IMG/VR virus record: IMGVR_UViG_3300046790_000018 | Span: 1-23,276 of that record | Length of the DNA stretch: 23,276 nucleotides | Source: a virus | Direction: 5' to 3' (one strand) | Shown here: positions 2,747 through 23,276 of the stretch, in pieces | Layout: each line of letters begins with the position of its first letter | Numbering within the stretch: the first letter of the stretch is position 1 | Program-made: the position numbers and the translations under genes | The notes under the pieces: model-generated | Told to the model about the DNA's origin: nothing | What the model saw: the letters and a program-made list of their open reading frames with translations, nothing else | Database searches by the model: none

Positions 2747-3816
2747 TAGTCGGAGTCCGCTTCAATGAGGCCCGCGAGTCGCATCTTTTCGAGCCACTGA
2801 TCCATCGCGGCCTTGAAGTTCAGTTCGGCCTCTTGCCGCTTCGGCAAGTACTCGGCCTCAGCACCATGCGTGGCGGCGTCCCAGGCGTCCTTCGACGTGG
2901 TGTAGGCACTGTCGTATTCGCCCTGGATCTCATCCACGCCGTACTTGTAGGCATCCTTGGATGCGCCGTAGTTCTTCGTCCAGATGTCGGAAGCATTGCT
3001 CCGGTTCGTGTCGTAGACACCCTGCTCGCGGTTGAACACGTTGTTGTAGTTCTGCTCGCCCAACTTCTGCCCGAAGCCGATCAGTTCCTTGGCCGTACCG
3101 CCCGTGCGGAGCAGCCCCTTGGACGCGGCGCTGTTGGCCAGCGCCTTGCCGCCCTGCTCCATCGCGAAGGCGAACCCAGGTTCGCTGCGCGCCTGCTCCA
3201 GCGTAGGCCGCTGGAAATCGGCGTAGCTAAACGCCGCTGGCTCTTTCCAGCTTGGGAGGTCGAGCGCGGCCGGTGGCGTAAAGACGGGCGCGGTGTACGT
3301 CGGCATCCACCCGCTGGACGTGGGCGGCGGCGCAAAGGGGCCGGTATAGCCGCTGCCGCCTTGCCCCCCGCCCCCGCCACCGCTACTGCCGCTGCCCAGG
3401 CGCGTGTCCTCGACTCCGGCATCGCTGAAGTAGCCCGAAATGAGCCGGTTCTCGTCGTGATAGTTCTTCTTGAGAAACTCCGCCGCCCATTCCGGCGGAA
3501 CGCCTGCGGCAATCGCGGCATCGTAGTCGCGCTTGGCGGACTCCTCCGTATCGCTTTCGCCCTGACCGCGCGTAATGTGCCCGTCCACGTAGCCGCCGGT
3601 TGTCCCTGCCTGCACGAACGGTAGGCTCGGATCGGCGGTCGGGTTCTTGATGTTGATCGCACCGGACGGGTTGCTGGGATCGAACGAGGCATCCGGCGGC
3701 ACCCAATAGGTGGGCGGTTCGCCGTCAGCAGAGCCTGGAGTGACCGGATCAACGACGGGCTCAAGGGTGTCCTCGTCGATGAGATTGCCTTCTTGGTCGT
3801 AGGTGTAGCGGGCCAT
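2746..3816 (-). CDS. DNA transfer / ejection-type virion protein (356 aa)
   Basis: Residues about 203-268 carry the block often seen in podovirus DNA-transfer or internal virion proteins: EPGFAFAMEQGGKALANSAA, then SKGLLRTGGTAKELIGFGQK, then EQNYNNVFNREQ. The pattern PG(F/Y)xFxxxQGxxALxxSAAxxG(L)LxxG is typical of that family. Before it is a Gly/Ser-rich linker (about residues 138-160). After it is a long helical, Tyr/Asp/Lys-rich tail that repeats an (A/S)KDA(Y/W) theme. The stop overlaps the next start by one base and the upstream gene ends 3 nt before this ATG. The expected role is as a protein packaged in the capsid and released with the DNA. Family recognition is by motif memory only. 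Confidence 0.8.
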   Translation of the reverse strand: MARYTYDQEGNLIDEDTLEPVVDPVTPGSADGEPPTYWVPPDASFDPSNPSGAINIKNPTADPSLPFVQAGTTGGYVDGHITRGQGESDTEESAKRDYDAAIAAGVPPEWAAEFLKKNYHDENRLISGYFSDAGVEDTRLGSGSSGGGGGGQGGSGYTGPFAPPPTSSGWMPTYTAPVFTPPAALDLPSWKEPAAFSYADFQRPTLEQARSEPGFAFAMEQGGKALANSAASKGLLRTGGTAKELIGFGQKLGEQNYNNVFNREQGVYDTNRSNASDIWTKNYGASKDAYKYGVDEIQGEYDSAYTTSKDAWDAATHGAEAEYLPKRQEAELNFKAAMDQWLEKMRLAGLIEADSD

Positions 3817-3819
3817 TGG

Positions 3820-4863
3820 CTATACGTCCTCGTTCGTGTTCCACAGCAATTTCTTGAACTCGCCAAGGGTGTCGAGCGAGGCCCGCCGATACGGCGCCCG
3901 CCGCGCTTCGGTCGCCTCAAAGCGCGCCTGCTCTTTCGCGGCGGTTTCGTCGTACGCGCGCATCGCGAAGTCGAGCGCAGCCTTGTCGGCGGCGGCTTGC
4001 GCGGCGGTCTGATTGTTGGCGCTGTTGTTGTTCATGTAGCTGTTGAAGGCGCCGACGCCCAACCCGGCCAAGTCCTTGAGCGTGATGCCGAACGGGAGTT
4101 GAAACGAGGTCTTCTGGCTGTTCTGCCGGTCCTGGTTCTGACTCTGATTGTTCGTCGGTTCTGGCACGTCGGGCGTGTAGGTCGATGGCGTGTTGCCAAA
4201 GAGATTCGCCACGGTGGCGGCGCCCGCGCCAGCGCCCGCAGTTGCCAGCGCGGCCGGGAGCCTCGACGCGACATTGCCGGGCAGGTTCTCCACGACCCCA
4301 GACGAAAAGTTCGGAAGCGACGACTGCGCCACCAAGGGGACTGCCGACGAGGCGACCCCTGGCGCGAGCGCACTCGCCCCAGGCAAGACGTTCGCGGCCA
4401 ACGGTGACGAGAAGGTGGCAGGCAACAGGCCCGCGTTGACAGTCGGCTCAACGATGCCGGGCACGACACCGCTGACCGTGCCGACCTGTGAGGATGCCGC
4501 ATCGGCCGCGCTCTGCCCGGCCACCTGTGCCCCGGTCTGCGCCGCGTTGCCAAACAACGACGCACCCAACGACATCGCGGTTGGTGCGATGTGTCCCCAC
4601 AGCGCCGGGTCGGCATACCACTCGGTATAGTTGGCGTCGTGGAATTTGTTCCCGTCCCACGCCATCCCTGACGTGTTGATGCCGCGCGCATTGGCGACTT
4701 GCCGCGCTTGCTCGCCTTCTGCGAGTTTCTTGTATCGCGCGTACGCCGCCGGGCTTTCGCCCGCGACCCGTGGACGGATCGGCCTGGGCGTGAAGCCAAG
4801 CGAAGCACCCGTGATGTCCTGTTTCTTGGGCTTTTGATCGACCCGAAAACCACCCGCTGCCAT
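3820..4863 (-). CDS. Ejection-type virion protein (347 aa)
   Basis: The ATG follows directly after the TAA of the upstream gene (TAAATG). The N-terminal 75 residues are charged and end in VANARGINTSGMAWDG. The middle (about 90-240) is Ala/Ser/Gly/Val-rich low complexity, as in membrane-active ejection proteins. The C-terminus is helical, with AAADKAALDFAMRAYDE followed by FEATEARRAPYRRASLDTLG. The ExRRAPYRxAS motif recurs in phage virion proteins encoded beside DNA-transfer proteins. Together with the next two genes it resembles a three-protein ejection set like P22 gp7/gp20/gp16 in arrangement, though not necessarily in sequence. Confidence 0.75.
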   Translation of the reverse strand: MAAGGFRVDQKPKKQDITGASLGFTPRPIRPRVAGESPAAYARYKKLAEGEQARQVANARGINTSGMAWDGNKFHDANYTEWYADPALWGHIAPTAMSLGASLFGNAAQTGAQVAGQSAADAASSQVGTVSGVVPGIVEPTVNAGLLPATFSSPLAANVLPGASALAPGVASSAVPLVAQSSLPNFSSGVVENLPGNVASRLPAALATAGAGAGAATVANLFGNTPSTYTPDVPEPTNNQSQNQDRQNSQKTSFQLPFGITLKDLAGLGVGAFNSYMNNNSANNQTAAQAAADKAALDFAMRAYDETAAKEQARFEATEARRAPYRRASLDTLGEFKKLLWNTNEDV

Positions 4864-5337
4864 TTACTCGCCCCCCATTGTTTCCAGCACGAGGTGTAAC
4901 TGGTAGGCCATGCCTGCGGCGACCGACGCATACGCCACCGAGTAACTGATCGGCGTGGCCGCATCGCTATGCACCATCGCCGTCCCGGTCCCGACTGACG
5001 CGGTCGTGTTCCCCGTCACCGCCAGCACGAGCGGCAGCGAGCAGACGACGCCACCGTCTACCCAATGCACCGTCACCGCTACGGAAGATGACGTAGCGGC
5101 GGGCACCGTCACGCGCACCGCCGCTGTTACCCGATAGAGGCCCGAAGGCAGCGACCCGGTGGCAATCGACGTGACCGGAATCGCCGCCGCCACCGGCGGC
5201 AACTGGACGACCTGTTGCCGCACCGGCACCGTGGCCATCGCGGCGGTCTGGTCGCGGAAATACACCTGCCACGGTTGCGTGACAAAGCGGTCCTCATCGA
5301 CCAATTCCGTCTGAACAAGTCCAGGGGTAAGCGGCAT
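4864..5337 (-). CDS. Beta-rich virion protein (tail/neck fibre-type domain, 157 aa)
   Basis: The N-terminus contains RFVTQPWQVYFRD, a short helix seen at the start of several phage tail-associated proteins. The rest looks like a beta-sandwich: PSGLYRVTAAVRVTVPAAT, then SVAVTVHWVDGG, then ATPISYSVAYASVAAG and a final LHLVLE strand. This GLYR...ATPI(S/T)Y...YAS pattern is a recurrent phage structural domain. The start overlaps the stop of the hub-protein gene by one base (TGATG). The position between the neck hub and the ejection proteins suggests a tail or neck surface component. The exact role is unknown. Confidence 0.72.
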   Translation of the reverse strand: MPLTPGLVQTELVDEDRFVTQPWQVYFRDQTAAMATVPVRQQVVQLPPVAAAIPVTSIATGSLPSGLYRVTAAVRVTVPAATSSSVAVTVHWVDGGVVCSLPLVLAVTGNTTASVGTGTAMVHSDAATPISYSVAYASVAAGMAYQLHLVLETMGGE

Positions 5338-15625: not shown

Positions 15626-15898
15626 TCATAGCCCCTCGGCCAGCCCTTCGGCGTCGAGTTGGTGGTAGAACGGCAGCATCCGATCCGAAATCGCGATCTG
15701 CTCGCGCTTCGGAACGGCGGTCCAGGCGGGCAACGACCGTGTCGGATCGAGCAGCACGGCGGCGAGGAGCGCCGCGAGTGCCTCCCGTGCATTCTGGATG
15801 ATGAGTGCCTCGGCGCGGGCATTCGACGCCTGCAACATGCGGGTATGCGCGGCGAGCGATTCGCCAATCAGCCGGGCCACGTCATCCTCGACACTCAC
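15626..15898 (-). CDS. Small helical protein between terminase and portal (90 aa)
   Basis: It starts with GTG at 15898, overlapping the TerL stop by four bases (GTGA), and ends 14 nt before the portal ATG. It is almost wholly helical: ARLIGESLAAHTRMLQASNA, then AREALAALLAAVLLDP, then a C-terminal REQIAISDRMLPFYHQLDAE. I do not recognise a family. Its fixed position between TerL and portal suggests a packaging-accessory or head-assembly role, which is inference. Confidence 0.68.
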   Translation of the reverse strand: MSVEDDVARLIGESLAAHTRMLQASNARAEALIIQNAREALAALLAAVLLDPTRSLPAWTAVPKREQIAISDRMLPFYHQLDAEGLAEGL

Positions 15899-17397
15899 GC
15901 CATCCAGCCCATCTCGCCGTCCTCGGTCGCAAACGGCGATTCCACGAGCCGCAAGAGGCGCGGGGCACGAACCGGCGCGGCGAACGTGAGTGCCAATGCG
16001 TCCCCGTCATCGGGCGAATGTCCGCCGCGCCGTTTTATGTCGGCTTTGCTCTCAAGCCAAATCCGTTGCTTCGGGTCATGTCGAATCCCCGGCTGCTGGA
16101 GGTCTTGCACCAGCCAGCGGTCGGTGCCAATCGCGGCCGTCAAGAGCCACATCTTGAGCTTGTCCCACATGAAATCGCGGTAATACCGCGTTTTCGTCGG
16201 GTCAGGGCTGTCCGCCCCGAAATTGATTTCCTGCACGTTCCGATAGCCCAATTCCCGCAACCGCGCCGCGACCGGCCCGGCAATGCCTGCGGAATCGAGA
16301 AACAACATCGCCACGCGGTGGCCATTGTAGGTCGTGCTCAGCACATCCGACAGTCGAGAAATCAAAATCGCGGGGTCACGCGTCAGCGACCCAGGAATCC
16401 GCACCGGCGGCACCGTGCGCGCGTCCATCCCTCGGCGGAACCGCACGACGTTGAAGTCGGACCCGCCCCACGCCAAATCACATCCGGCGATGAGGGGTTC
16501 GTCGGGCAGCACGGCAATCGATCGGGACTTCGCGGCCTCGACCCGGTCGCTGTCGATGAACTGAATGTCCCCCGCCTTCGGCGGGATCCCCTCGACACGG
16601 ACACGAAAGACATCGGAATCGGCGCCATAGTCGTCCGCAATTTCCTGCACCCACCCGGCGTTGTGCCCCTCAACGGTCCGGACATCAATGACCCAGCTTT
16701 TATAGCGATGCCGCCGCTCCCCGAACACGGCTTCGTAGAACGACCCCTGGCGCCGCGTCGGGTTCCCGAACAGGAAAATCATCGGCTCTCCCTTGGCAAG
16801 CCCGCCCTCTTGGACTTCGTGGATGACCTCGGGAACATTGGAATCTTCGTCGTTGATGTAGAAACTGGTGCTTCTTTCGCTGTGCTGTCCAGCAAAGGCT
16901 TCGGAGTTTTCTGGCGCGCATGTTTGTGGTGTCACGCGCCACGACTCCCGCGACCCGACCCGAAACAGAATTTGCGTATTCGCTTCAAACCAGTGCGACG
17001 TGAGGGACAGCTTGTTCCAGAACAGAATCGCCGCCCACGTCTTGTCGTCCAACTGCGTCGAGGTGTTCGCGGTGACGGTCCCTTTGGCATCCCGCCGCGT
17101 GCTCATCAGGAAGTTCACGAGCATCCCGGTCAGCGCACCTTTGCCCGCGCCGTGACCACTGCTCACGGCTGCGCGAATCGGCTTCACCGCGTCCATGCCG
17201 TTGAACTTCCGCGCCCGAATCTCGCCGCCCAGCCACTCCAGGAACTCCTCTTGCCAGCGGCGCGGCCCGCGATACCGCTCCAGCACCGTCCCCGGCTCGC
17301 CCCAGGGAAACGCCGCCCGCACGTAGCCCAACGGGTCCGCGTAGAACTGCCCGACAAATTCTTCGAGGTCGTCCTCTAACTCCGCCGCCGACTTCAC
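15895..17397 (-). CDS. terL: Terminase large subunit (ATPase-nuclease)
   Basis: A 500-residue packaging motor starting with GTG at 17397, overlapping the upstream TGA (GTGA), with GGAG upstream. ATPase domain: Walker A SSGHGAGKG at residues 79-87; Walker B-like segment SFYINDEDSNVP with D183/E184; coupling motif FLFGNPTRR (about 208-216). Nuclease (RNase H-like) domain: GCDLAWGGSD with D307, LFLDSAG with D368, and SPDDGDAL with D463-D466. It translocates DNA into the prohead and cuts the concatemer. The Walker B context reads YINDEDS rather than the common YIDEA(S/H), a mild variation. TerS lies two genes upstream. Confidence 0.93.
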   Translation of the reverse strand: MKSAAELEDDLEEFVGQFYADPLGYVRAAFPWGEPGTVLERYRGPRRWQEEFLEWLGGEIRARKFNGMDAVKPIRAAVSSGHGAGKGALTGMLVNFLMSTRRDAKGTVTANTSTQLDDKTWAAILFWNKLSLTSHWFEANTQILFRVGSRESWRVTPQTCAPENSEAFAGQHSERSTSFYINDEDSNVPEVIHEVQEGGLAKGEPMIFLFGNPTRRQGSFYEAVFGERRHRYKSWVIDVRTVEGHNAGWVQEIADDYGADSDVFRVRVEGIPPKAGDIQFIDSDRVEAAKSRSIAVLPDEPLIAGCDLAWGGSDFNVVRFRRGMDARTVPPVRIPGSLTRDPAILISRLSDVLSTTYNGHRVAMLFLDSAGIAGPVAARLRELGYRNVQEINFGADSPDPTKTRYYRDFMWDKLKMWLLTAAIGTDRWLVQDLQQPGIRHDPKQRIWLESKADIKRRGGHSPDDGDALALTFAAPVRAPRLLRLVESPFATEDGEMGWMA

Positions 17398-17576
17398 CCG
17401 ACCGGCTCCGGCTCCGCTGCTTCTTCTAACGGCAGTGCGACATCTGCTTCAGTGTCCTGCGCTTCTTCCGGCGCTTTTTCCTGCGGTTCCGGCGCTTTTT
17501 CCGGCGCTTCGACCGGCACCGCTTCAGCCTCATCCTTCATGTCGATGGTCCGCTCCACACCCTTGCCCAGTCTCAT
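17394..17576 (-). CDS. Small acidic protein between TerS and TerL (60 aa)
   Basis: It starts at the ATG at 17576, overlapping the TerS stop (ATGA), and its stop overlaps the TerL GTG, so it is coupled on both sides. The sequence is Glu/Pro/Ala-rich with a repeated (E/P)xEKAPE theme (VEAPEKAPEPQEKAPEEAQD). It is probably disordered. It may be a linker or a protein bridging the terminase subunits. Low-complexity composition weakens the case for a conserved function, but the double overlap supports real translation. Confidence 0.6.
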   Translation of the reverse strand: MRLGKGVERTIDMKDEAEAVPVEAPEKAPEPQEKAPEEAQDTEADVALPLEEAAEPEPVG

Positions 17577-18268
17577 ACGCCCTCTCCCTTCTCCGCGACG
17601 ACCTCGATATCCGGCAACAACCCCGCCGCCCGCCGCCGCGCCGCATCCAATTTCGCCCCCACCACGTTCACGTTAATCGTCGTCTCCGACCGATCAATCA
17701 ACATCCCGTGATACCGCGCCGCCAACTCCACGTATTTTTCTCGCGGCGCCAGTCGTATCTTCAGAATCCGGTCTACCTGCCCATCCCCCGCCACCGCATT
17801 TTTCATCACCACTTCAATCGACGTAATCGCCTGCGCTTCCGCCTCCGTCAATGCCGACATCGGCTTCAAATCCCCCTTCGACCACGTCCGCTTCACCTCC
17901 CCCTTCACCCAGGCCGGACTCAGATTCCCCAGCACGTCCTCCCGCAACGGCCCGTCCCGCGTATACAGTTCCTCCCCGTCCTCCGCGTAAAACAACCCCC
18001 TCGGGTCGAACAACGCCCCACGCCGGATCTGCTCCGCCACCACCGCCGCCGTCATCTCCGCCGTCGCCTGCAACGCCTCCGCCCGACGCCGACGCGCCCG
18101 CGACCCCTTCCACTTCGCGCCCCCACGCGCCTTCACCAACGCCGCCGCCCTCGCTCGCGCCTGCTCCTCCGTCAACCCGCGCGCCTTCGCCACCGCCGCC
18201 TCGCGGTCCCCCAATACCTTCGATACCGTCTCCACCGCCACCGCCACTAACGTGTCCTCGACGCCCAT
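17573..18268 (-). CDS. terS: Terminase small subunit
   Basis: About 231 residues from the ATG at 18268; an in-frame upstream GTG would add 16 residues of atypical sequence. The C-terminal half is recognisable as a TerS-type domain: LTEAEAQAITSIEVVMKN then RILKIRLAPREKYVELAARY then HGMLIDRSE. A preceding motif, LFDPRGLFYAEDGE, resembles the D-x-R-x-L/x-F boundary of many TerS-like proteins. The N-terminus is a highly basic helix (GAKWKGSRARRRRAEAL), plausible for DNA binding. TerS recognises the packaging signal and regulates TerL. It begins the late block. A TAGAGT box ends 8 nt before the ATG. Confidence 0.82.
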   Translation of the reverse strand: MGVEDTLVAVAVETVSKVLGDREAAVAKARGLTEEQARARAAALVKARGGAKWKGSRARRRRAEALQATAEMTAAVVAEQIRRGALFDPRGLFYAEDGEELYTRDGPLREDVLGNLSPAWVKGEVKRTWSKGDLKPMSALTEAEAQAITSIEVVMKNAVAGDGQVDRILKIRLAPREKYVELAARYHGMLIDRSETTINVNVVGAKLDAARRRAAGLLPDIEVVAEKGEGV

Positions 18269-18328: not shown

Positions 18329-18342
18329 CCTAACCGCTTAGG
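18329..18342. promoter_or_regulatory. Palindromic site S1 (CCTAA-N4-TTAGG)
   Basis: CCTAACCGCTTAGG is a perfect 5-bp inverted repeat with a 4-nt spacer, 61 bp upstream of the TerS ATG. It belongs to a six-member family in this window and could be an operator for the late genes. Confidence 0.65.
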
Positions 18343-18440
18343 CTAAACTGCCATGGCCACGCCGCCGCCGACAGCGGGGTAGAAAGCTAAGAGCTTAGGA
18401 GAAACAGCCACGGACACCACCGCCGCCGCGACAGGGGTAG
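18330..18440. repeat. Imperfect 57-bp tandem duplication containing S1 and S2
   Basis: The segment beginning at 18330 and the one beginning at 18387 align over about 53 bp with roughly ten differences and one small indel. Each begins CTAA-N4-TTAGG, continues AAAC-GCCA, and ends in a CCGCCGCCG...ACAG...GGGGTAG block. Confidence 0.8.
18386..18399. promoter_or_regulatory. Palindromic site S2
   Basis: GCTAAGAGCTTAGG matches the family with one arm mismatch. It occupies the same place in the second 57-bp unit that S1 occupies in the first. Confidence 0.55.
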
Positions 18441-18703
18441 GAGTCCCTGCTGCGCTCGTGCGCTTCGACTTCTGTCTTCGATCCTGTGGCCACGCTGCGT
18501 TTCGCCTCCATACCCTGGCCACCGCGCCCACGTCGAGCCAGCGGGCGAGCGCCAGCGGTCGCAGGGCGGAGCAGGGCGCAGGCGCCAGCGCAGGCGAGCC
18601 CACCGCGCGAAGGTCCAGGACGCAGGGCGCCTTGCCTCGGCAGGTGGCCATCGGTGATTGCCTCCGGCTGTCGGCTCTCGCGTTTCCCCTGCCAGCCTGA
18701 GAA

Positions 18704-18717
18704 CCTAGCCGCTTAGT
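18704..18717. promoter_or_regulatory. Palindromic site S3
   Basis: CCTAGCCGCTTAGT shares the CCGC spacer with S1 and S4. A TTGACA hexamer overlaps its right end (18717-18722), but no good -10 follows on the plus strand. A half-site, TAACCTAA, lies nearby at 18751-18758. Confidence 0.5.
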
Positions 18718-18861
18718 TGACAGTCGGCCGTAAGGCAATGGCATTACGCGTAACCTAAGGGGGCGAAAGTCCAGCCTAGACACCGCGACTATGGACGGCT
18801 GAGCCAGAACGCGAATCTTTACGAAATTTAATCGTGGCTTCGCTTTCGAGGCGAAGGTGGT

Positions 18862-18909
18862 CGTGCCTATCGGGTCGTAGGCACGGCATAGGCACGGATA
18901 GGCACGGCA
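18862..18909. repeat. Iteron-like cluster 1 (TAGGCACGG)
   Basis: Three direct units start at 18878, 18889 and 18899 (TAGGCACGGCA, TAGGCACGGA, TAGGCACGGCA), preceded by an inverted unit CGTGCCTA at 18862-18869. Periods of 11 and 10 bp put the units on one face of the helix. An AT-rich patch lies 25-50 bp to the left. Confidence 0.85.
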
Positions 18910-18944
18910 TGGAAGGCAGGCCCGACGCCCGTGCCTGTCCGGGG

Positions 18945-18969
18945 GGGAAAACCCCTTTAGGGGTTTCCC
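18945..18969. other. Strong hairpin with TTTA loop
   Basis: GGG-AAA-CCCC (18945-18955, with one bulged A at 18948) pairs with GGGGTTTCCC (18960-18969) around loop TTTA. No T run follows on either strand, so a terminator is not the simplest reading. Confidence 0.6.
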
Positions 18970-19180
18970 GGAAAAGGCCGGTCGGAGGGGGGTCTAGGCG
19001 TCGTGTCGGGGTTCGGGGTGTTTCGGCGAGCTCGCGGAACAGAGAGAAGAGGGGACGACCGCGCCAGCCGGTCCCAGGGGCGACGAACGGCGCTCGCGAC
19101 GGGGTTCGGGTCATCGGACGGCCGGATTATGGTTCCTGGGGCAATTCGTGGGTTCCGGGGTTTGGGGGTTCCTGGGGGCG

Positions 19181-19204
19181 GCTGGACGGCTGGACGGCTG
19201 GACG
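19181..19204 (+). repeat. Three 8-bp tandem repeats (GCTGGACG)
   Basis: Exact copies at 19181-19188, 19189-19196 and 19197-19204, in the noncoding region between the two iteron-like clusters. Confidence 0.85.
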
Positions 19205-19243
19205 TGGGAGGGTGTCAGGGCGGGAATTGTCCAGAAAACAGGT

Positions 19244-19265
19244 CGTGCCTATGGCCATAGGCACG
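19244..19265. promoter_or_regulatory. 22-bp perfect palindrome
   Basis: CGTGCCTATGG (19244-19254) is followed directly by its reverse complement (19255-19265). The arms are the TAGGCACG iteron in opposite orientations, so this is two iterons head to head. It is a plausible dimeric protein-binding site. Confidence 0.85.
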
Positions 19266-19345
19266 GCATAGGCACGGATAGGCACGACTAGGCAGGGCAG
19301 GTGCCAGGAGAGCGACTCTCCAAATAGGCACGGCATAGGCACGGC
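19258..19345. repeat. Iteron-like cluster 2 (TAGGCACGG)
   Basis: Units start at 19258, 19269, 19279 (variant TAGGCACGA), 19289 (variant TAGGCAGGG), 19325 and 19336. The first 29 bp (19258-19286) are identical to 18878-18906 in cluster 1. The spacing is 10-11 bp apart from one gap (19299-19324). Confidence 0.87.
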
Positions 19346-19363
19346 CACGGCTAGGTTATTGGG

Positions 19364-19384
19364 AAAAGGGCGCCGGAGCGCCCT
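19364..19384 (-). terminator. Intrinsic terminator of the leftward early operon
   Basis: GGGCGC (19368-19373), loop CGGA, then GCGCCC (19378-19383), extended by one A-T pair. On the minus strand it is followed by four T residues. It lies 10 nt downstream of the stop of the 305-aa gene. Confidence 0.75.
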
Positions 19385-19393
19385 ATGGCAGAG

Positions 19394-20311
19394 TTACGGG
19401 CGGGTTGTCGAAACCAGGATCGGCCGTTTGCCGAAGGCGAAAGTGCTATCGGTCGGGCTGACCGTGAAGGTGGCCGTCACGGTGACCACATCGCCGCGTT
19501 CGAGGCTTGCCGCGCTGGGCACGCTCAGCCAGACCTTCGCGCGGTTTTCCAGTTGAACCAACATCTTGAGCTGTTCGCCGTAGGAGCTTTCGTGCAGCTT
19601 GAGCGACAGGACCGTGCCGGTCGCCGTCTGGCGCCCGCTGGGCGCATTACCGACCGGCAGGGTTGCTTCCTGGGCGCGCTGGGCGGCTCGCTCGACATCG
19701 CGCGCCAGGGACGCCACCAGCGCCTCTACCTGCCGCTGTGAGAGCGAACCGAAGTGATTGAGCTTGCCGATCACGTCCTGGGCAAACGTGTTCCGCGCGT
19801 GGACCGGATCGGCCGCTGTCGTGAGTGCCAGCGCCAAGGCAGGATAGGCCGCTAACGTCGCTTCGCGCGCTTTCCAGACCTTCAACCGCGCGTGGCCCGC
19901 TTCGGCTTTGGACTTCAACTGAGCCAGCTTCCAGGACAGCCGATCCGCGAACCCGAGACGCGCCGTGCAATCGGCACCAAACACGACGCTATCGCCCGTG
20001 GGAATGTGCCGGGTAACCGTGATCCAGCGGATATTGCCGTTCCCGCAGTGCACGCAGCGATGCGACTTGCGCCGCCAGTCGTCGCCCAGCGCCTCGCGCA
20101 TATCGCGCTCCCAGAACTCCACGTCCGCCGCGTAGCCCTCCGAACTCCCGCCGCAGTACTCCGGCCGTTTGTTGTCGAGGTAATCCAGCACCTCATACGC
20201 GGCCGGATCAAAGTTCGTCGGATTGTGGACGGTGGGCACCCGCTTAGCGGGAACGTCCACCGCGCGATAGTCGAACCCGTCTGAATCGCCATCGAGCATT
20301 AACTGAGCCAT
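19394..20311 (-). CDS. Zinc-ribbon plus OB-like conserved phage protein (305 aa)
   Basis: The start is placed at the ATG at 20311, which has AGGAGG 4 nt upstream and overlaps the preceding stop by one base; a GTG at 20314 is possible. Early residues include TVHNPTNFDPAAYEVLDYLD. At about residue 85 is RCVHCGNGNIRW, and further on VVFGADCTARLGF, giving Cys ligands for a zinc ribbon. The middle is helical. The C-terminal 85 residues look like an OB-type beta barrel: TGTVLSLKLHESSYGEQLKM, then LVQLENRAKVWLSVP, then GDVVTVTATFTVSP and FAFGKRPIL. This pattern occurs in conserved phage early proteins. Nucleic-acid binding is inferred from the fold guess. Confidence 0.75.
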   Translation of the reverse strand: MAQLMLDGDSDGFDYRAVDVPAKRVPTVHNPTNFDPAAYEVLDYLDNKRPEYCGGSSEGYAADVEFWERDMREALGDDWRRKSHRCVHCGNGNIRWITVTRHIPTGDSVVFGADCTARLGFADRLSWKLAQLKSKAEAGHARLKVWKAREATLAAYPALALALTTAADPVHARNTFAQDVIGKLNHFGSLSQRQVEALVASLARDVERAAQRAQEATLPVGNAPSGRQTATGTVLSLKLHESSYGEQLKMLVQLENRAKVWLSVPSAASLERGDVVTVTATFTVSPTDSTFAFGKRPILVSTTRP

Positions 20312-20496
20312 CACGCCTCCTGATCCGCCTCAAACGCCGACGCGCAATCGACGCACATCACCTGACCCGCGATCACCGGATAGAACCGGTTATCGCAGCC
20401 TTCGACCTCGCACGACACCACGACCGACTTGTCGAGATACGGCTGAGCCTTTTTGATTTCTTCCGCGTGCGCCTTGAGAATCTCGTTTGCTGTCAT
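20311..20496 (-). CDS. Small zinc-ribbon protein (61 aa)
   Basis: The start at 20496 has AAAGGGA upstream. Residues 1-22 are a charged helix (NEILKAHAEEIKKAQPYLD). Cys29, Cys34, Cys48 and Cys51 (C-x4-C-x13-C-x2-C) form a likely four-Cys zinc site. The stop is next to the start of the 305-aa gene, so the two are coupled. A promoter with palindrome S4 lies upstream. Function unknown; a small regulator or adaptor is possible. Confidence 0.7.
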   Translation of the reverse strand: MTANEILKAHAEEIKKAQPYLDKSVVVSCEVEGCDNRFYPVIAGQVMCVDCASAFEADQEA

Positions 20497-20534
20497 CGCG
20501 TTTCCCTTTCGTTAAAAACCAACCGAGATCCAAG

Positions 20535-20562
20535 AGTATATCCTAGCCGCTCAGGATGCAAG
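20535..20562 (-). promoter_or_regulatory. Candidate leftward promoter overlapping S4
   Basis: On the minus strand TATACT (20540-20535) is a near-consensus -10. A -35-like CTTGCA (20562-20557, 16-nt spacer) or TTGCAT (15-nt spacer) precedes it. Palindrome S4 fills the spacer. TAGGAT (20545-20540) is an overlapping alternative -10. Confidence 0.45.
20542..20555. promoter_or_regulatory. Palindromic site S4
   Basis: CCTAGCCGCTCAGG is a family member 46 bp upstream of the 61-aa zinc-ribbon gene, placed between its -35-like and -10-like boxes. That is a typical repressor position. Confidence 0.55.
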
Positions 20563-20583
20563 CATAAAAATGCACCCTGAGCG
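20548..20583. other. 13-bp inverted repeat overlapping S4
   Basis: CGCTCAGGATGCA (20548-20560) and TGCACCCTGAGCG (20571-20583) pair at 12 of 13 positions around a 10-nt A-rich loop. ATTTATTTTT follows on the plus strand. It could be a terminator read rightward, or an extended operator. It lies just after the 113-aa gene. Confidence 0.6.
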
Positions 20584-20591
20584 ATTTATTT

Positions 20592-20933
20592 TTAGCGCCA
20601 GCCTTCAACCGTGGCGAGGGCTGAGCGCAGCGCATCAGCCGTCTGGCGCCGCACCTGGGCGGACTGTTCGACCGCTGTCGCGTGAATGCGCCCGGCTGTC
20701 TCCTGAGCTTGCGCGATCCGTTCAGACCGAACCTGCTCCGCACCCTTGATGATGTCGGCTGCATCGCGCAGAGCGACGGACGGCAGATACATCGGCGCCC
20801 AGTCGGAGCGCACGTCCCGCTCGACTTCCGCGCGTACCGACGACAGCCAAGGCCCGAGGTAGGACTGGGCGCCCAGCTTGGCGATCACGTCATCCAGGAT
20901 CGCGAGTTCCTGCGCCTTCGTGATCCCGCTCAT
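20592..20933 (-). CDS. Conserved small phage protein (113 aa)
   Basis: The start is chosen at the ATG at 20933, which overlaps the stop of the 34-aa ORF (ATGA). A longer frame beginning at 21071 would start inside an operator and lacks a Shine-Dalgarno. The N-terminus has QELAILDDVIAKLGAQSYLG then PWLSSVRAEVERDVRSDWAP, a (L/I)DxxIAxLGxxSYLGPWL pattern seen in small phage proteins. The C-terminus is a long helix with heptad-like Ala and Gln (GRIHATAVEQSAQVRRQTAD). Function unknown. It belongs to the leftward early operon. Confidence 0.72.
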   Translation of the reverse strand: MSGITKAQELAILDDVIAKLGAQSYLGPWLSSVRAEVERDVRSDWAPMYLPSVALRDAADIIKGAEQVRSERIAQAQETAGRIHATAVEQSAQVRRQTADALRSALATVEGWR

Positions 20934-21034
20934 CGCGACACCCGAAAGCCAAAGAGGCAAAACGCTTGCACCGCCAACAGAAACACCCAATCGACCACAT
21001 GGGCGCCGAACGCGTAACCAGTCAAAAAATCCAT
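20930..21034 (-). CDS. 34-aa membrane peptide at the head of the leftward operon
   Basis: The ATG at 21034 has a perfect AGGAGG (21048-21043) 8 nt upstream, the best ribosome site of this operon. It encodes MDFLTGYAFGAHVVDWVFLL then AVQAFCLFGFRVSR, with stop overlapping the next start by four bases. It has one hydrophobic span with a basic C-terminus. It may be a genuine small membrane protein or a leader peptide that couples translation of the 113-aa gene. Confidence 0.6.
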   Translation of the reverse strand: MDFLTGYAFGAHVVDWVFLLAVQAFCLFGFRVSR

Positions 21035-21054
21035 AACTAAATCCTCCTGTATTC

Positions 21055-21084
21055 AAGATACAGAAACGCATGGGCGTATGTCAA
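21055..21084 (-). promoter_or_regulatory. Leftward early promoter with internal operator
   Basis: On the minus strand TTGACA (21084-21079) is followed after 18 nt by TATCTT (21060-21055). Operator 1 lies wholly in the spacer. The 34-aa ORF begins about 20 nt downstream. Confidence 0.7.
21064..21076. promoter_or_regulatory. Operator 1 (AAACGCATGGGCG)
   Basis: One of three copies of AAACGCATNNGCG in 65 bp. It sits in the spacer of the leftward promoter. Confidence 0.65.
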
Positions 21085-21088
21085 GCAT

Positions 21089-21101
21089 AAACGCATAGGC
21101 G
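21089..21101. promoter_or_regulatory. Operator 2 (AAACGCATAGGCG)
   Basis: The second copy lies between the two divergent -35 boxes, in the same orientation as operator 1 and 25 bp from it. Confidence 0.65.
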
Positions 21102-21108
21102 AATCACC

Positions 21109-21138
21109 TTGACATCGCATATGCGTTTAATGGATCAT
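21109..21138 (+). promoter_or_regulatory. Rightward early promoter with internal operator
   Basis: Consensus TTGACA (21109-21114) is followed after 18 nt by GATCAT (21133-21138), a weaker -10. Operator 3 lies in the spacer. The 78-aa gene begins at 21181, leaving a leader of about 36 nt. Confidence 0.6.
21116..21128. promoter_or_regulatory. Operator 3 (CGCATATGCGTTT)
   Basis: The third copy, inverted relative to the other two and containing the perfect palindrome CGCATATGCG. It starts 1 nt after the rightward -35; operator 1 starts 2 nt after the leftward -35. Confidence 0.65.
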
Positions 21139-21180
21139 CAAATACGCCTGAATTTACAGGCTCGAAACGAGGTAACGACA

Positions 21181-21417
21181 ATGGCACAGCACAGCACTTG
21201 GACCGGTCGCACGTTAGGGGAACCGACAGCGGAGCAGTGGGCAGCATTGCAACGATTCTCGACCGCATACGGCCGAACGTGGAAACAGACGCTTCGCGAT
21301 GCATGGATGGACGGCAACTACCCGTGCAACGAGGACGACGCCAGCCTGCTCCAACAGCTCCGTAACCAATTCGGCCCGCGCTGGCTCATGCTGGTCGATA
21401 TCACCAAAGGCAGGTAG
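21181..21417 (+). CDS. Conserved small phage protein (78 aa)
   Basis: The start is at the ATG at 21181 with GAGG about 8 nt upstream; the frame stays open further upstream into the promoter, so the longer version is rejected. The sequence contains EQWAALQRFSTAYGRTWKQT then LRDAWMDGNYP and LLQQLRNQFGPRWLM. The pattern (F/L)xxxxGRTWKxxLxxAW...LxQ(L/I)RNxxGPxWL is common in small early proteins of diverse phages, with no established function known to me. It is the first gene under the rightward promoter, the place of cro in lambdoid phages, but no helix-turn-helix is evident. Confidence 0.75.
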   Translation: MAQHSTWTGRTLGEPTAEQWAALQRFSTAYGRTWKQTLRDAWMDGNYPCNEDDASLLQQLRNQFGPRWLMLVDITKGR

Positions 21418-21440
21418 GCGCCGCGCTCCGATCTTCCCGC

Positions 21441-21470
21441 TTGACTCTCTGTAACCTAAACACTTAGGAT
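21441..21470 (+). promoter_or_regulatory. Candidate promoter ending 6 nt before a start codon
   Basis: TTGACT (21441-21446), 18-nt spacer, TAGGAT (21465-21470). The predicted transcript start would fall on or next to the ATG at 21477, giving a leaderless mRNA. Palindrome S5 overlaps the -10. Confidence 0.5.
21455..21468. promoter_or_regulatory. Palindromic site S5
   Basis: CCTAAACACTTAGG, a perfect inverted repeat. Its right arm supplies both the TAGGAT box and a possible AGGA Shine-Dalgarno for the 56-aa gene. The flanks (GTAA before, ATAAGCA after) are shared with S6. Confidence 0.7.
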
Positions 21471-21476
21471 AAGCAC

Positions 21477-21647
21477 ATGGACTTCGCCACCTTTGAATCG
21501 TTCGCCATTGCCTACCGCGCGATGTTTCGCCGCTGGATGGAGTACACGCCCGATCAGGTCGGCTCCGTGGTCTACGCGGAGCAGATGGCGGAACTTGCCG
21601 ACCGCTATCCCGCATGGGCCGAACGCGTCGAAAACGAAAAGGAGTAA
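21477..21647 (+). CDS. Small acidic protein (56 aa)
   Basis: A frame from the ATG at 21477 to TAA at 21645 encodes MDFATFESFAIAYRAMFRRW, then MEYTPDQVGSVVYAEQMAEL and ADRYPAWAERVENEKE. It is helical, with aromatic residues on one face and an acidic end. The S5 palindrome lies directly upstream. Its end holds the AAGGAG ribosome site of the next gene, 6 nt before that ATG, so the two are coupled. No family recognised. Confidence 0.65.
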   Translation: MDFATFESFAIAYRAMFRRWMEYTPDQVGSVVYAEQMAELADRYPAWAERVENEKE

Positions 21648-21653
21648 CCGACC

Positions 21654-22343
21654 ATGACCACGAACACCGCTCGACACTTCTACCGCTGCACCGGCTGCTT
21701 AGAAGTAGTCGCGCTAACCGAACAGCAGACGATGGAACGCTGCCAGACGCGCGCCACCTGCGCCACCTGCGCCCAGCGGTTTGAGTACATGGGACGCGTC
21801 CAGGTGGATCGGCTTGTCCAGGAGCACACGCGGTGCAAGTGCGACGACCGCTGCACGTCCGCCCGTGGCCCGATCTGCAACTGCAAATGTGGCGGAGCAA
21901 ATCATGGCGCTGGCATGCTGGGCTATGTGCGGGTAACGGTAGATAAGGGCGCTGTTCCGGTCATCCAGACGCCGAGTGCTACGCGCGCTGCTATCGCCGG
22001 GCGCCAGTATCGGGAATTTACCGCGCTGCTAGCTGTCGCCGCCGACGAATTGAAAAGCTTGCTCGACCGCAAGATCGCGGGCCAGTACCTACAGCCCGCC
22101 GACTACACGCGCCTGCTTACGCTCCGTCGCGCACTGCACAAGGCGAACGACGCCCGCGTGCATGCCGCCAGGATGAAAACCTTACGCGCCGTTGTCAGCC
22201 TGCCACTGCCGCCGACGCCAGTCGCCGCAGTCGCCGCCGAAGTAACCCACGCCATCCAGACCGCTGCTCCGCTGGCTGAAGTGCCGTTCACCTTGACCGC
22301 ACAGCCCAGCACGCGCGCCGCCAAGCAGGAGAGCTTGTTTTAG
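21654..22343 (+). CDS. Cys-rich zinc-binding phage protein (229 aa)
   Basis: The start at 21654 has GGAG 9 nt upstream. Residues 11-40 contain CTGC and CATC pairs, like a zinc ribbon. At about 60-85 is HTRCKCDDRCTSARGPICNC followed by KCGGANHGAG. The (H/T)xCxxRCTxAxGPxCxCxCGGxNHG motif is widely conserved in phage early proteins, including actinophages, with unknown function. A helical region follows (REFTALLAVAADELKSLLDR) and an Ala/Pro-rich tail ending KQESLF. The Cys and His clusters imply two metal sites. A DNA-associated early role is inferred. Confidence 0.8.
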   Translation: MTTNTARHFYRCTGCLEVVALTEQQTMERCQTRATCATCAQRFEYMGRVQVDRLVQEHTRCKCDDRCTSARGPICNCKCGGANHGAGMLGYVRVTVDKGAVPVIQTPSATRAAIAGRQYREFTALLAVAADELKSLLDRKIAGQYLQPADYTRLLTLRRALHKANDARVHAARMKTLRAVVSLPLPPTPVAAVAAEVTHAIQTAAPLAEVPFTLTAQPSTRAAKQESLF

Positions 22344-22345
22344 TC

Positions 22346-22723
22346 ATGACCAACGACTGCACCATTCGCGCGCTCGCGGCCGTGACCGAGACACCCTATG
22401 CCGATGTCGTCGCCCGGCTTGTCCAGGATGGCTATCGGCCCGGACGACGCTTTCACCTCGACCGCTGGCTTACCTGCCAGATGGCGCCAGCTATCGGGGA
22501 ACCGGAAAAGGTTTTCGGCTGGAATGCCACCTGGATCAAGCTGCCGCCCGTCCAGAAAGGACAGCGCCGCCCGACGCTCGCCACCTTCGCCGCGCTCCAT
22601 CCAGGACGCTACATTCTCCGGCAGTCTAGACACGTTGTCGCCCTAGTCGATGGACGCGCCGCGATGGAAGAACGCTACGACCACGCGCCGATTTACGGCG
22701 CCTGGAAGTTCACCCGCACATAG
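22346..22723 (+). CDS. C39/papain-like cysteine-protease-like protein (125 aa)
   Basis: It begins 2 nt after the previous stop. The N-terminus NDCTIRALAAVTETPYADVV places Cys5 at the start of a helix, as in C39- and papain-like folds. Near the C-terminus, HPGRYILRQSRHVVALVDGR places His96 and Asp102 in the usual H-x5-D spacing. The protein is only 125 residues and matches a small conserved phage or prophage group (DC...RAL, then TLxxFxxxHPxGRYxxRxxxHVxAxVDG). Protease, amidase or transglutaminase-like chemistry is possible; the substrate is unknown. Confidence 0.7.
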   Translation: MTNDCTIRALAAVTETPYADVVARLVQDGYRPGRRFHLDRWLTCQMAPAIGEPEKVFGWNATWIKLPPVQKGQRRPTLATFAALHPGRYILRQSRHVVALVDGRAAMEERYDHAPIYGAWKFTRT

Positions 22724-22748
22724 CTTTGCGCCTTGACTCACTTTTGAC

Positions 22749-22777
22749 TTGCAACCAGTAACCTAAACGATTAGGAT
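22749..22777 (+). promoter_or_regulatory. Candidate promoter ending 7 nt before a start codon
   Basis: TTGCAA (22749-22754), 17-nt spacer, TAGGAT (22772-22777). A TTGACT at 22744-22749 overlaps the first box. As at S5, the transcript start would fall at or beside the ATG (22785). Confidence 0.45.
22762..22775. promoter_or_regulatory. Palindromic site S6
   Basis: CCTAAACGATTAGG, a perfect inverted repeat, differing from S5 only in two spacer bases. It lies 9 nt before the start codon of the right-edge gene. Confidence 0.7.
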
Positions 22778-22784
22778 AAGCATT

Positions 22785-23276
22785 ATGGCAAAGACAACGA
22801 CGATCCCCACCCGCTACGGCCTGAAGTTTTTCCAGGAACACTCGTACGGATACGCACACTTCCGCTTCTACATCGTCACTATCGGCCCGACTGCATCGGA
22901 GCGCCGCTACTTCGACAACGATCCGCAGAACAAGCTGGTCAACTACGACGAGGTGAGAGGCTGTAGTTCGTGGCACGACGAGGCCGCATACGACCGGCTA
23001 CAGATTGACTCGCAGGCCAACAGCGACAACCGCGAAAACCTGTATGGCTGGGACGTGCGATATCGCGAGACGGGCTCGCTCGAACTGCATGACCTGGAAC
23101 GCATGGTGAAAACCCTGCGGACCATCACGCGCAAGATGGAACAACTGAGCGCCAAGTATGGGCGCCCGGATACGTTTCCCGCGTACGTCGCCAGGGTAGC
23201 GGCAGCAGTGGGCGCCGACTCGATTGTGTTTTCGCAGCAGGACCACCCGACGCACAACGGCACCGACCACACGATC
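22785..23276 (+). CDS. Unrecognised early protein, 3' end outside the window
   Basis: An open frame from the ATG at 22785 (MAKTTTIPTRYGLKFFQEHS) runs through the right edge without a stop, giving at least 164 residues. It is rich in Tyr, Asp and Arg (ERRYFDNDPQNKLVNYDEVR). A helical stretch (ELHDLERMVKTLRTITRKME) is followed by YGRPDTFPAYVARVAAAVGA. I recognise no domain. The S6 palindrome and TAGGAT box directly upstream suggest an independent transcription unit under the same control as the 56-aa gene. Confidence 0.7.
   Translation, partial: MAKTTTIPTRYGLKFFQEHSYGYAHFRFYIVTIGPTASERRYFDNDPQNKLVNYDEVRGCSSWHDEAAYDRLQIDSQANSDNRENLYGWDVRYRETGSLELHDLERMVKTLRTITRKMEQLSAKYGRPDTFPAYVARVAAAVGADSIVFSQQDHPTHNGTDHTI

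Follow-up and report, generated by a model that had tools for sequence, protein, structure and literature searches.

Palindromic operators at phage early promoters are associated with genes encoding KGGRP, a putative autoregulatory domain

The DNA analysed here (the window) is a virus fragment of 23,276 nt, the whole of IMG/VR record IMGVR_UViG_3300046790_000018. It contains six palindromes of the form CCTAA-N4-TTAGG (S1–S6) within 4.4 kb, and we describe these sites together with a small domain, KGGRP, that is encoded behind sites of the same kind in other phages. S1 (CCTAACCGCTTAGG, 18329–18342) is exact and lies 60 bp upstream of the ATG (18268, minus strand) of the gene for the terminase small subunit (TerS, 17573–18268, minus). 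S2 (GCTAAGAGCTTAGG, 18386–18399) is a second site 57 bp from S1; the weak site S3 (CCTAGCCGCTTAGT, 18704–18717) adjoins a TTGACA and falls in a 1.1-kb stretch without called genes. No strand is assigned to these three sites. S4 belongs to a leftward promoter-operator (20533–20561, minus), identified by eye, in which TTGCAT (20561–20556) and TACTCT (20538–20533) flank a 17-bp spacer that contains CCTGAGCGGCTAGG (20555–20542); read leftward, the sequence is TTGCAT-CCTGAGCGGCTAGGATA-TACTCT. In the promoter-operator of S5 (21441–21470, plus), TTGACT and TAGGAT are separated by 18 bp, the exact palindrome CCTAAACACTTAGG (21455–21468) overlaps the −10 hexamer, and a promoter scan scored 9/12; a 56-amino-acid gene (21477–21647, plus) starts 6 nt after TAGGAT. 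S6 (CCTAAACGATTAGG, 22762–22775, plus), also exact, overlaps TTGCAA-17-TAGGAT (by eye), with 7 nt between TAGGAT and the ATG of a gene (22785–23276, plus) that is cut by the contig end and encodes at least 164 amino acids.

The first-pass annotation of this DNA had described a family of six palindromes with shared 5-bp arms and an exact 4-nt spacer, none of them inside a gene. This is a real operator family. Exact CCTAA-N4-TTAGG occurs three times in the window (18329, 21455, and 22762, with none to the left of 18329), compared to a shuffle mean of 0.01, and none of 100 shuffles reached three. The description needs some adjustment: the arms are exact for S1, S5, and S6, with one mismatch in S2 and two each in S3 and S4, and the spacer is constant in length but not free in sequence. 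Outside the window it is mostly nCGn, making the operator a 14-bp near-palindrome with the consensus CC(T/C)AAnCGnTT(A/G)GG. All six sites lie outside the genes called by our own script. The agreement of S5 and S6, put earlier at about 27 bp, amounts to identity at 23 of 25 positions, from GTAACC through AAGCA. When up to two mismatches are allowed, the window holds nine sites against 2.43 expected, i.e., S1–S6 plus 19248, 21086, and 21361; S3 and S4 therefore prove little alone.

To guard against hindsight, every window position was scored with a weight matrix derived from 40 operator strings, none of which came from the window itself. The six top positions were exactly S1 (23.3 bits), S6 (21.2), S5 (17.6), S2 (12.1), S3 (8.7), and S4 (8.6). 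In 100 first-order Markov windows, the medians for ranks one to six were 8.0, 6.1, 5.1, 4.0, 3.8, and 3.1 bits, and the maxima 15.9, 11.2, 11.2, 9.7, 9.0, and 8.3 bits. S1, S6, and S5 all exceed the best score of any simulated window, S2 exceeds the rank-four maximum, S3 falls below the rank-five maximum, and S4 lies slightly above the rank-six maximum. Chance can be set aside for S1, S5, and S6; support for S2 is moderate, and S3 and S4 are weak when taken alone.

The operators occupy a fixed register within promoters. We scanned viral contigs with TTGACAN{0,20}CCTAANCGNTTAGG and obtained 36 stretches with 37 sites: two at gap 0, 16 at gap 1, ten at gap 2, nine at gap 14, and none at the 17 other gaps. 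The gap-14 sites form one sequence family; their nine contigs (L097, L100, L104–L106, L119–L121, and L131, L-numbers denoting fetched loci) share an AT-rich sequence with TTGACA-N14-CCTAATCGWTTAGG and served as a negative control. Outside this family, 26 of 28 sites have a gap of 1–2, giving 26 promoters in 24 contigs, and these are mostly followed by TATATT/TATACT-like hexamers. A gap of 1–2 fits a 17-bp spacer, and the operator usually occupies this spacer, with TTGACA as −35 on one side and a TATAAT-like −10 on the other, as in the promoter-spacer operator of an autoregulator. S4 carries weight because similar sites in relatives of this phage share its build, i.e., TTGCAT-CCTAAACGGCTAGGTGC-TACTGT and TTGACA-GCCTAAGCGCCAGGGTA-TCTACT in L009/L010 and TTGCAT-CCTAGACGGCTGGGCTG-TCTAAT in L005; in L067 and L080, TTGACATACC(C/T)AA(G/A)CGCTTAGG stands ahead of small genes. 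S5 and S6 differ in register from S4, with the palindrome overlapping the −10 and ending up 6–7 nt before the ATG, a layout compatible with either leaderless transcription or ribosome binding at AGGA. The exact promoter-operator form is mainly a phage feature, since TTGACA-N1-2-CCTAAnCGnTTAGG occurred in only three stretches of an 84,980-species genome collection; two of these lie beside a KGGRP domain, one of them divergently.

Relatives of the phage were sought with its terminase large subunit (TerL, 15895–17397, minus; phrog_5902 at E 1.1e-43, phrog_2 terminase at E 3.9e-24). This search recovered 93 relatives, of which 80 were kept, the first eleven being 74–100% identical; no relative was found in genome contigs. 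In L005–L010 (TerL 85–88% identical), each of the six loci has its highest score at a site upstream of TerS, 59–99 nt from the TerS ATG compared to 60 in the window. This site is clear in L005, L006, L009, and L010 (the L009 stretch is identical to that of L010) and weaker in L007 (CCCAACTGGTTCGG) and L008 (GCTAAGCGGGTGGG). The site stands out because the flanking sequence differs between L006, the window, and L005/L009. A noncoding element, GGGACTCCTACCCC (minus strand, window about 18433–18446), is likewise kept upstream of TerS in L005–L010.

Sites of the S4 and S5/S6 types are found again at promoters in related phages, and KGGRP genes were detected in the contigs of L008, L009, and L010. 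In L010/L009, TTGCAA-CGAGTAACCTGAACGCA-TAGGAT-AAGGAT-ATG heads seven same-strand open reading frames (ORFs), the last of which encodes KGGRP. The L010 run extends from 4426 down to 2666, and its heading site (4452, minus) has the build TTGCAA-17-TAGGAT-6-ATG, like S6; two of 21 fixed positions depart from the S5/S6 consensus and the weight matrix gives it only 7.8 bits. In L094, from the contig of L008, ATAACCTACCTGTGTAGGATAACGCC-ATG precedes a run at 3182–5294 whose final gene is KGGRP; the arms of this site are both changed (CCTAC/GTAGG) while the palindrome is kept. By analogy with L010 and L094, the KGGRP run of this phage would begin at S6, and its first gene is cut by the contig end.

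KGGRP is a domain of approximately 36 residues with the motif A..LGRKGG..tS..K..A.R.NGkkGGRPkK, common to the genes behind the gap-1/2 promoters. A hidden Markov model (HMM) detected it in 23 of the 24 contigs with gap 1–2, versus 0/11 for the loci with gap 0 or 14. The domain is encoded downstream, on the same strand and within 1.5 kb, in 21/24 contigs, and in L109 and L118 it lies elsewhere in the locus. The operon behind the site thus encodes a candidate regulator in 21 of 24 contigs, as it also does for L009/L010 and L094 within the clade of this phage. In an all-against-all comparison of the 24 operator loci (268 kb), the next family occurred in at most 5/24 and was of low complexity.

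We also performed the reverse test, in which viral contigs were searched with the KGGRP domain alone and the 1.5 kb upstream was examined for TTGN3-N0-4-CCNAA-N2-6-TTNGG. The best 80 of at least 106 confirmed loci were kept, leaving 71 distinct loci after removal of four repeated contigs and five near-identical loci. The pattern occurred upstream of 13/71, compared to 1/71 downstream and 3/71 on the other strand. For chromosomal KGGRP loci, 22 of 30 fetched had a placeable motif, and the pattern occurred upstream in 10/22, versus 0/22 downstream and 2/22 on the reverse strand. Twenty-nine permuted half-sites gave means of 1.7 (of 71) and 0.48 (of 22); the best of them, ACCNA (7/71 and 4/22), is a shifted copy of the motif. 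Two further operator counts become smaller once duplicates are set aside: with up to one mismatch, 13/76 loci carried the operator (six of them near-identical, L158–L161, L172, and L175) against 0–4 for 20 control palindromes, and in a further count 23/80 did (15 distinct without three repeated contigs and five near-identical loci) against 8/400 shuffles.

The chromosomal loci extend this association. In the phylum sample of an Acidobacteria metagenome-assembled genome, 29/297 genomes carry a KGGRP domain at E 1e-6, compared to 1/301 in a sample of another phylum. Small chromosomal KGGRP genes have the operator in their own promoter in L224, L229, L230, L232, and L247 and for both genes in L218; a short frame in L222 has no operator in its promoter. 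Variant sites in chromosomes follow the KGGRP gene. Some DUF2442 proteins of the Acidobacteria sample carry a C-terminal KGGRP, and among four such proteins checked by Pfam, the operator pattern was present at L231 and L245 and absent at L228 and L241. Thirty loci found with the DUF2442 model in the same 297 genomes, 27 of them without the KGGRP motif and some shorter than the intended 1.5 kb, had no operator pattern (0/30).

Three observations concern further KGGRP loci. A second KGGRP subfamily (MPISVHAAGRKGGRSTSPKK...) occurs in L065 (about 86–118), L114 (just before 5812), and L095 (just before 4433), and a variant palindrome, TTGTAAACCCAAGGGCTTCGGGTTACAAT, stands immediately ahead of the copies in L065 and L114. 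A KGGRP locus in L223 (2173, minus) has AATAACCTAAGCGATTGGGATTATG before the upstream ATGCCGAC start, a site that escaped the TTG-bound pattern. Among cultured phages and plasmids, the KGGRP domain had no match at E 0.01, and the 46-base promoter query matched cultured phages only at E 3 or worse. A longer KGGRP protein had two matches in cultured phages (E 0.01 and 7), the second with nothing of note; the first, vir555 (L216, BK063671.1), has TTGACA-ATACCCAAGCTGTTGGC-TATTAT before its KGGRP operon. According to its record, vir555 has an archaeal host (Methanomicrobiales), but the promoter of the operon is sigma70-like and a GGAGG resembling a Shine-Dalgarno sequence is present; a nearby gene carries PHROG 5902, matched by the TerL of the window as well. 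The host assignment may therefore be worth re-examining.

Ten KGGRP proteins had no match above the Pfam or NCBIfam cut-offs and none in PHROG better than E 0.014; one of the ten matched the KGG repeat PF10685 at E 0.083, and a PDB sequence search with one KGGRP protein returned no match. An AlphaFold2 model of a 42-residue KGGRP protein, based on 65 sequences, contains helices at 6–16 and 21–32 and a loose GGRPKK tail, with a mean predicted local distance difference test score of 82.7. The domain may be a minimal helix-turn-helix (HTH) with an AT-hook-like tail. Operators with a 6-bp centre go with a KGGRP variant that has extra helix-1 residues (L218, L232, and L247), a correlation limited by the apparent close relationship of these three loci. 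In those parts of the open-access literature that were accessible, we found no description of the KGGRP domain or its operator.

Taken together, these sequence comparisons make it probable that the palindromes are operators of a phage-encoded KGGRP autoregulator. KGGRP is the likely switch protein, since the operators sit in the promoter of the operon that encodes it; we infer that KGGRP is the binder, that it acts as a repressor, and that the KGGRP gene of this phage lies beyond the contig end. The domain, so far uncharacterised, combines two short helices with a basic, AT-hook-like GGRP tail. For most of the phages recovered, a single operator between −35 and −10 of an early promoter would be bound by a dimer of the KGGRP protein encoded in the operon behind, blocking RNA polymerase and limiting the protein's own synthesis. 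In the clade of this phage, sites occur at several promoters (S4, S5, and S6) and upstream of TerS (S1 and S2), and one regulator would therefore coordinate the early genes with the packaging operon; a site of the S5/S6 type stands at the head of the KGGRP gene run in relatives.

Several observations weigh against this interpretation. The contig of L116/L123 has two perfect promoter-operators and no KGGRP in its 23.8-kb record, and the HMM found no KGGRP gene among the proteins of the window, whose contig ends behind S6. Conversely, 58/71 viral and 12/22 chromosomal KGGRP loci lack a recognisable operator. KGGRP was detected at E 0.01 in 9/80 TerL loci, three of which (L019, L036, and L077) lack an operator, and in 7/20 records searched in full, a set that comprised 19 TerL relatives and included many fragments. 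A comparison with related phages had been suggested by the first-pass annotation, and conservation of the TerS-upstream site holds for L005–L010 but not for the more distant relatives with TerS (L011, L012, L014, and L078), which have no site there. S1–S3 lie outside any promoter spacer, and S4, whose hexamers each match the consensus at 3/6 positions, was not flagged by the promoter scan. In 20 phage records, the loose pattern (CCTARNCGNYTAGG, one mismatch) was not enriched, with 12 matches versus 18 for the reversed control; 12 records had no match, none had more than three, and the 41-kb record of L010 had two. A strict promoter pattern picked out no contigs besides those of L009 and L010. 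The 24 contigs include the near pairs L102/L125 and L112/L126, and L009 repeats L010. The AlphaFold2 model has a predicted template modelling score of 0.41 and no PDB match in Foldseek.

The sites might instead serve some other phage regulator, with KGGRP merely a regulated early gene product. In favour of this are the frequent position of KGGRP behind one or more other genes and the contig with operators and no KGGRP. We nevertheless consider it unlikely: no other family is found in more than 5/24 operator loci within the stretches fetched, and the small chromosomal KGGRP genes listed above carry the operator in their own promoter. A LacI-family regulator, suggested by the nCGn centre, which is all that LacI/GalR operators have in common with the operator here, was rejected, with its HTH (PF00356) detected in 0/26 records. 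Less probable still is a host regulator adopted by phages, as some phages use LexA. Such a regulator would account for one operator being common to phages with little other protein content in common, and KGGRP domains do occur in the Acidobacteria-phylum genomes (29/297) and in a sample of another phylum (1/301), but the promoter form occurs in only three stretches from 84,980 species, two of them beside KGGRP, and the chromosomal variant sites follow the KGGRP gene.

Action of S5 and S6 in RNA, where the TTAGGA arm would be a ribosome-binding site and a 5-bp hairpin would control translation, draws on the AGGA 7–8 nt before ATG at both sites and on the L010 and L094 counterparts, which are equally close to ATG. 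It cannot explain the family because S4 and 26 promoter sites lie between −35 and −10, outside the transcript, and we regard it as very improbable. Chance has even less to recommend it. S3 and S4 alone fall within or near the reach of random windows, and in the 20 phage records the loose pattern does not outnumber its reversed control, but chance is already contradicted for S1, S5, and S6 by three exact sites where 0.01 are expected and by scores above the best of 100 simulated windows, and it leaves unexplained why sites are conserved close to TerS and in front of KGGRP operons.

The proposed KGGRP autoregulator resembles several known systems in part. The first-pass annotation had proposed dispersed operators of one phage regulator and likened them to the stoperators of mycobacteriophage L5. 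The first idea is supported, given the intergenic positions, the TerS-upstream site in the six closest relatives scored, the recurrence of S4- and S5/S6-type sites, and KGGRP as a candidate; the analogy is not. The L5/Cluster A repressor is reported to read an asymmetric sequence at numerous genome-wide sites (PMC9283540). The likeness ends at one phage repressor with several dispersed sites: stoperators are asymmetric, in one orientation, and many, whereas the sites here are 14-bp near-palindromes, in promoters or just upstream of genes, and few, with at most three matches per record (n = 20) and no exact window site outside the 4.4 kb. The lambdoid cI/Cro operators, short palindromes that overlap early promoters and bind a small dimeric regulator, are similar in the palindromes, their position, and the small dimeric binder proposed. 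Here, in contrast, there is usually one site per promoter, and the candidate binder is a domain of approximately 36 residues without a good library match. AT-hooks have a GRP core, which the GGRPKK tail of KGGRP (RGRPKK in L130) resembles, but the operator is a GC-ended palindrome and KGGRP has two predicted helices besides. DUF4160/DUF2442 is listed as the type II toxin-antitoxin pair dhiTA of Dickeya (PMC8198452). The combination of DUF2442 with C-terminal KGGRP and an upstream operator in some loci resembles such autoregulation, as for a self-repressing antitoxin, whereas 27/30 sampled DUF2442 loci lack the KGGRP motif, 30/30 lack the operator pattern, and in phage proteins KGGRP either follows a different N-terminal part or has none before it.

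Other features of the window are as follows. TerS, behind S1 and S2 and beside TerL, was assigned from a PHROG terminase small subunit match (E 0.031) and relatives found by tblastn. The leftward gene behind S4 (20311–20496, minus) encodes 61 amino acids with a zinc-ribbon-like Pfam match below cut-off (E 0.012) and is followed by 19394–20311. Neither 19394–20314 nor the gene behind S6 has relatives in viral contigs; the ORF 21654–22343 matched seven loci there. Among ten window proteins, from the right half and TerL/TerS, family-library scans that were not aimed at an L5-type repressor gave no match to a repressor family. At 21055–21135 there are divergent promoter-like sites (TTGACA-18-TATCTT leftward and TTGACA-18-GATCAT rightward) and a second repeat/palindrome set (AAACGCATGGGCG, AAACGCATAGGCG, and CGCATATGCG) that may represent a further family of operators. 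Repeats of TAGGCACGG that resemble iterons, CGTGCCTATGGCCATAGGCACG among them, lie at 18860–19355 inside the 1.1-kb stretch without called genes, and L005, L007, and L009 have other short repeats near the same place; this is possibly a replication or packaging region.

More broadly, and with somewhat less confidence than for the phage operators themselves, we favour the view that KGGRP is an undescribed, widespread DNA-binding module, built of a bihelix and a GGRP tail, for which CC(T/C)AA-N2-6-TT(A/G)GG in the promoter is a dedicated operator code. As a plug-in autorepressor, the module would have been joined to unrelated partners in phages, in small stand-alone genes, and in DUF2442 proteins of the antitoxin-like kind, and the length of the operator centre would change together with the domain. 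An orphan 36-residue domain without a library match above cut-off is now paired with a precise operator, and this constitutes a testable prediction. If true, it would assign a function to numerous small phage proteins that lack annotation and to some DUF2442 proteins, and would identify the probable switch of a phage group that is represented here by metagenomic sequences alone.

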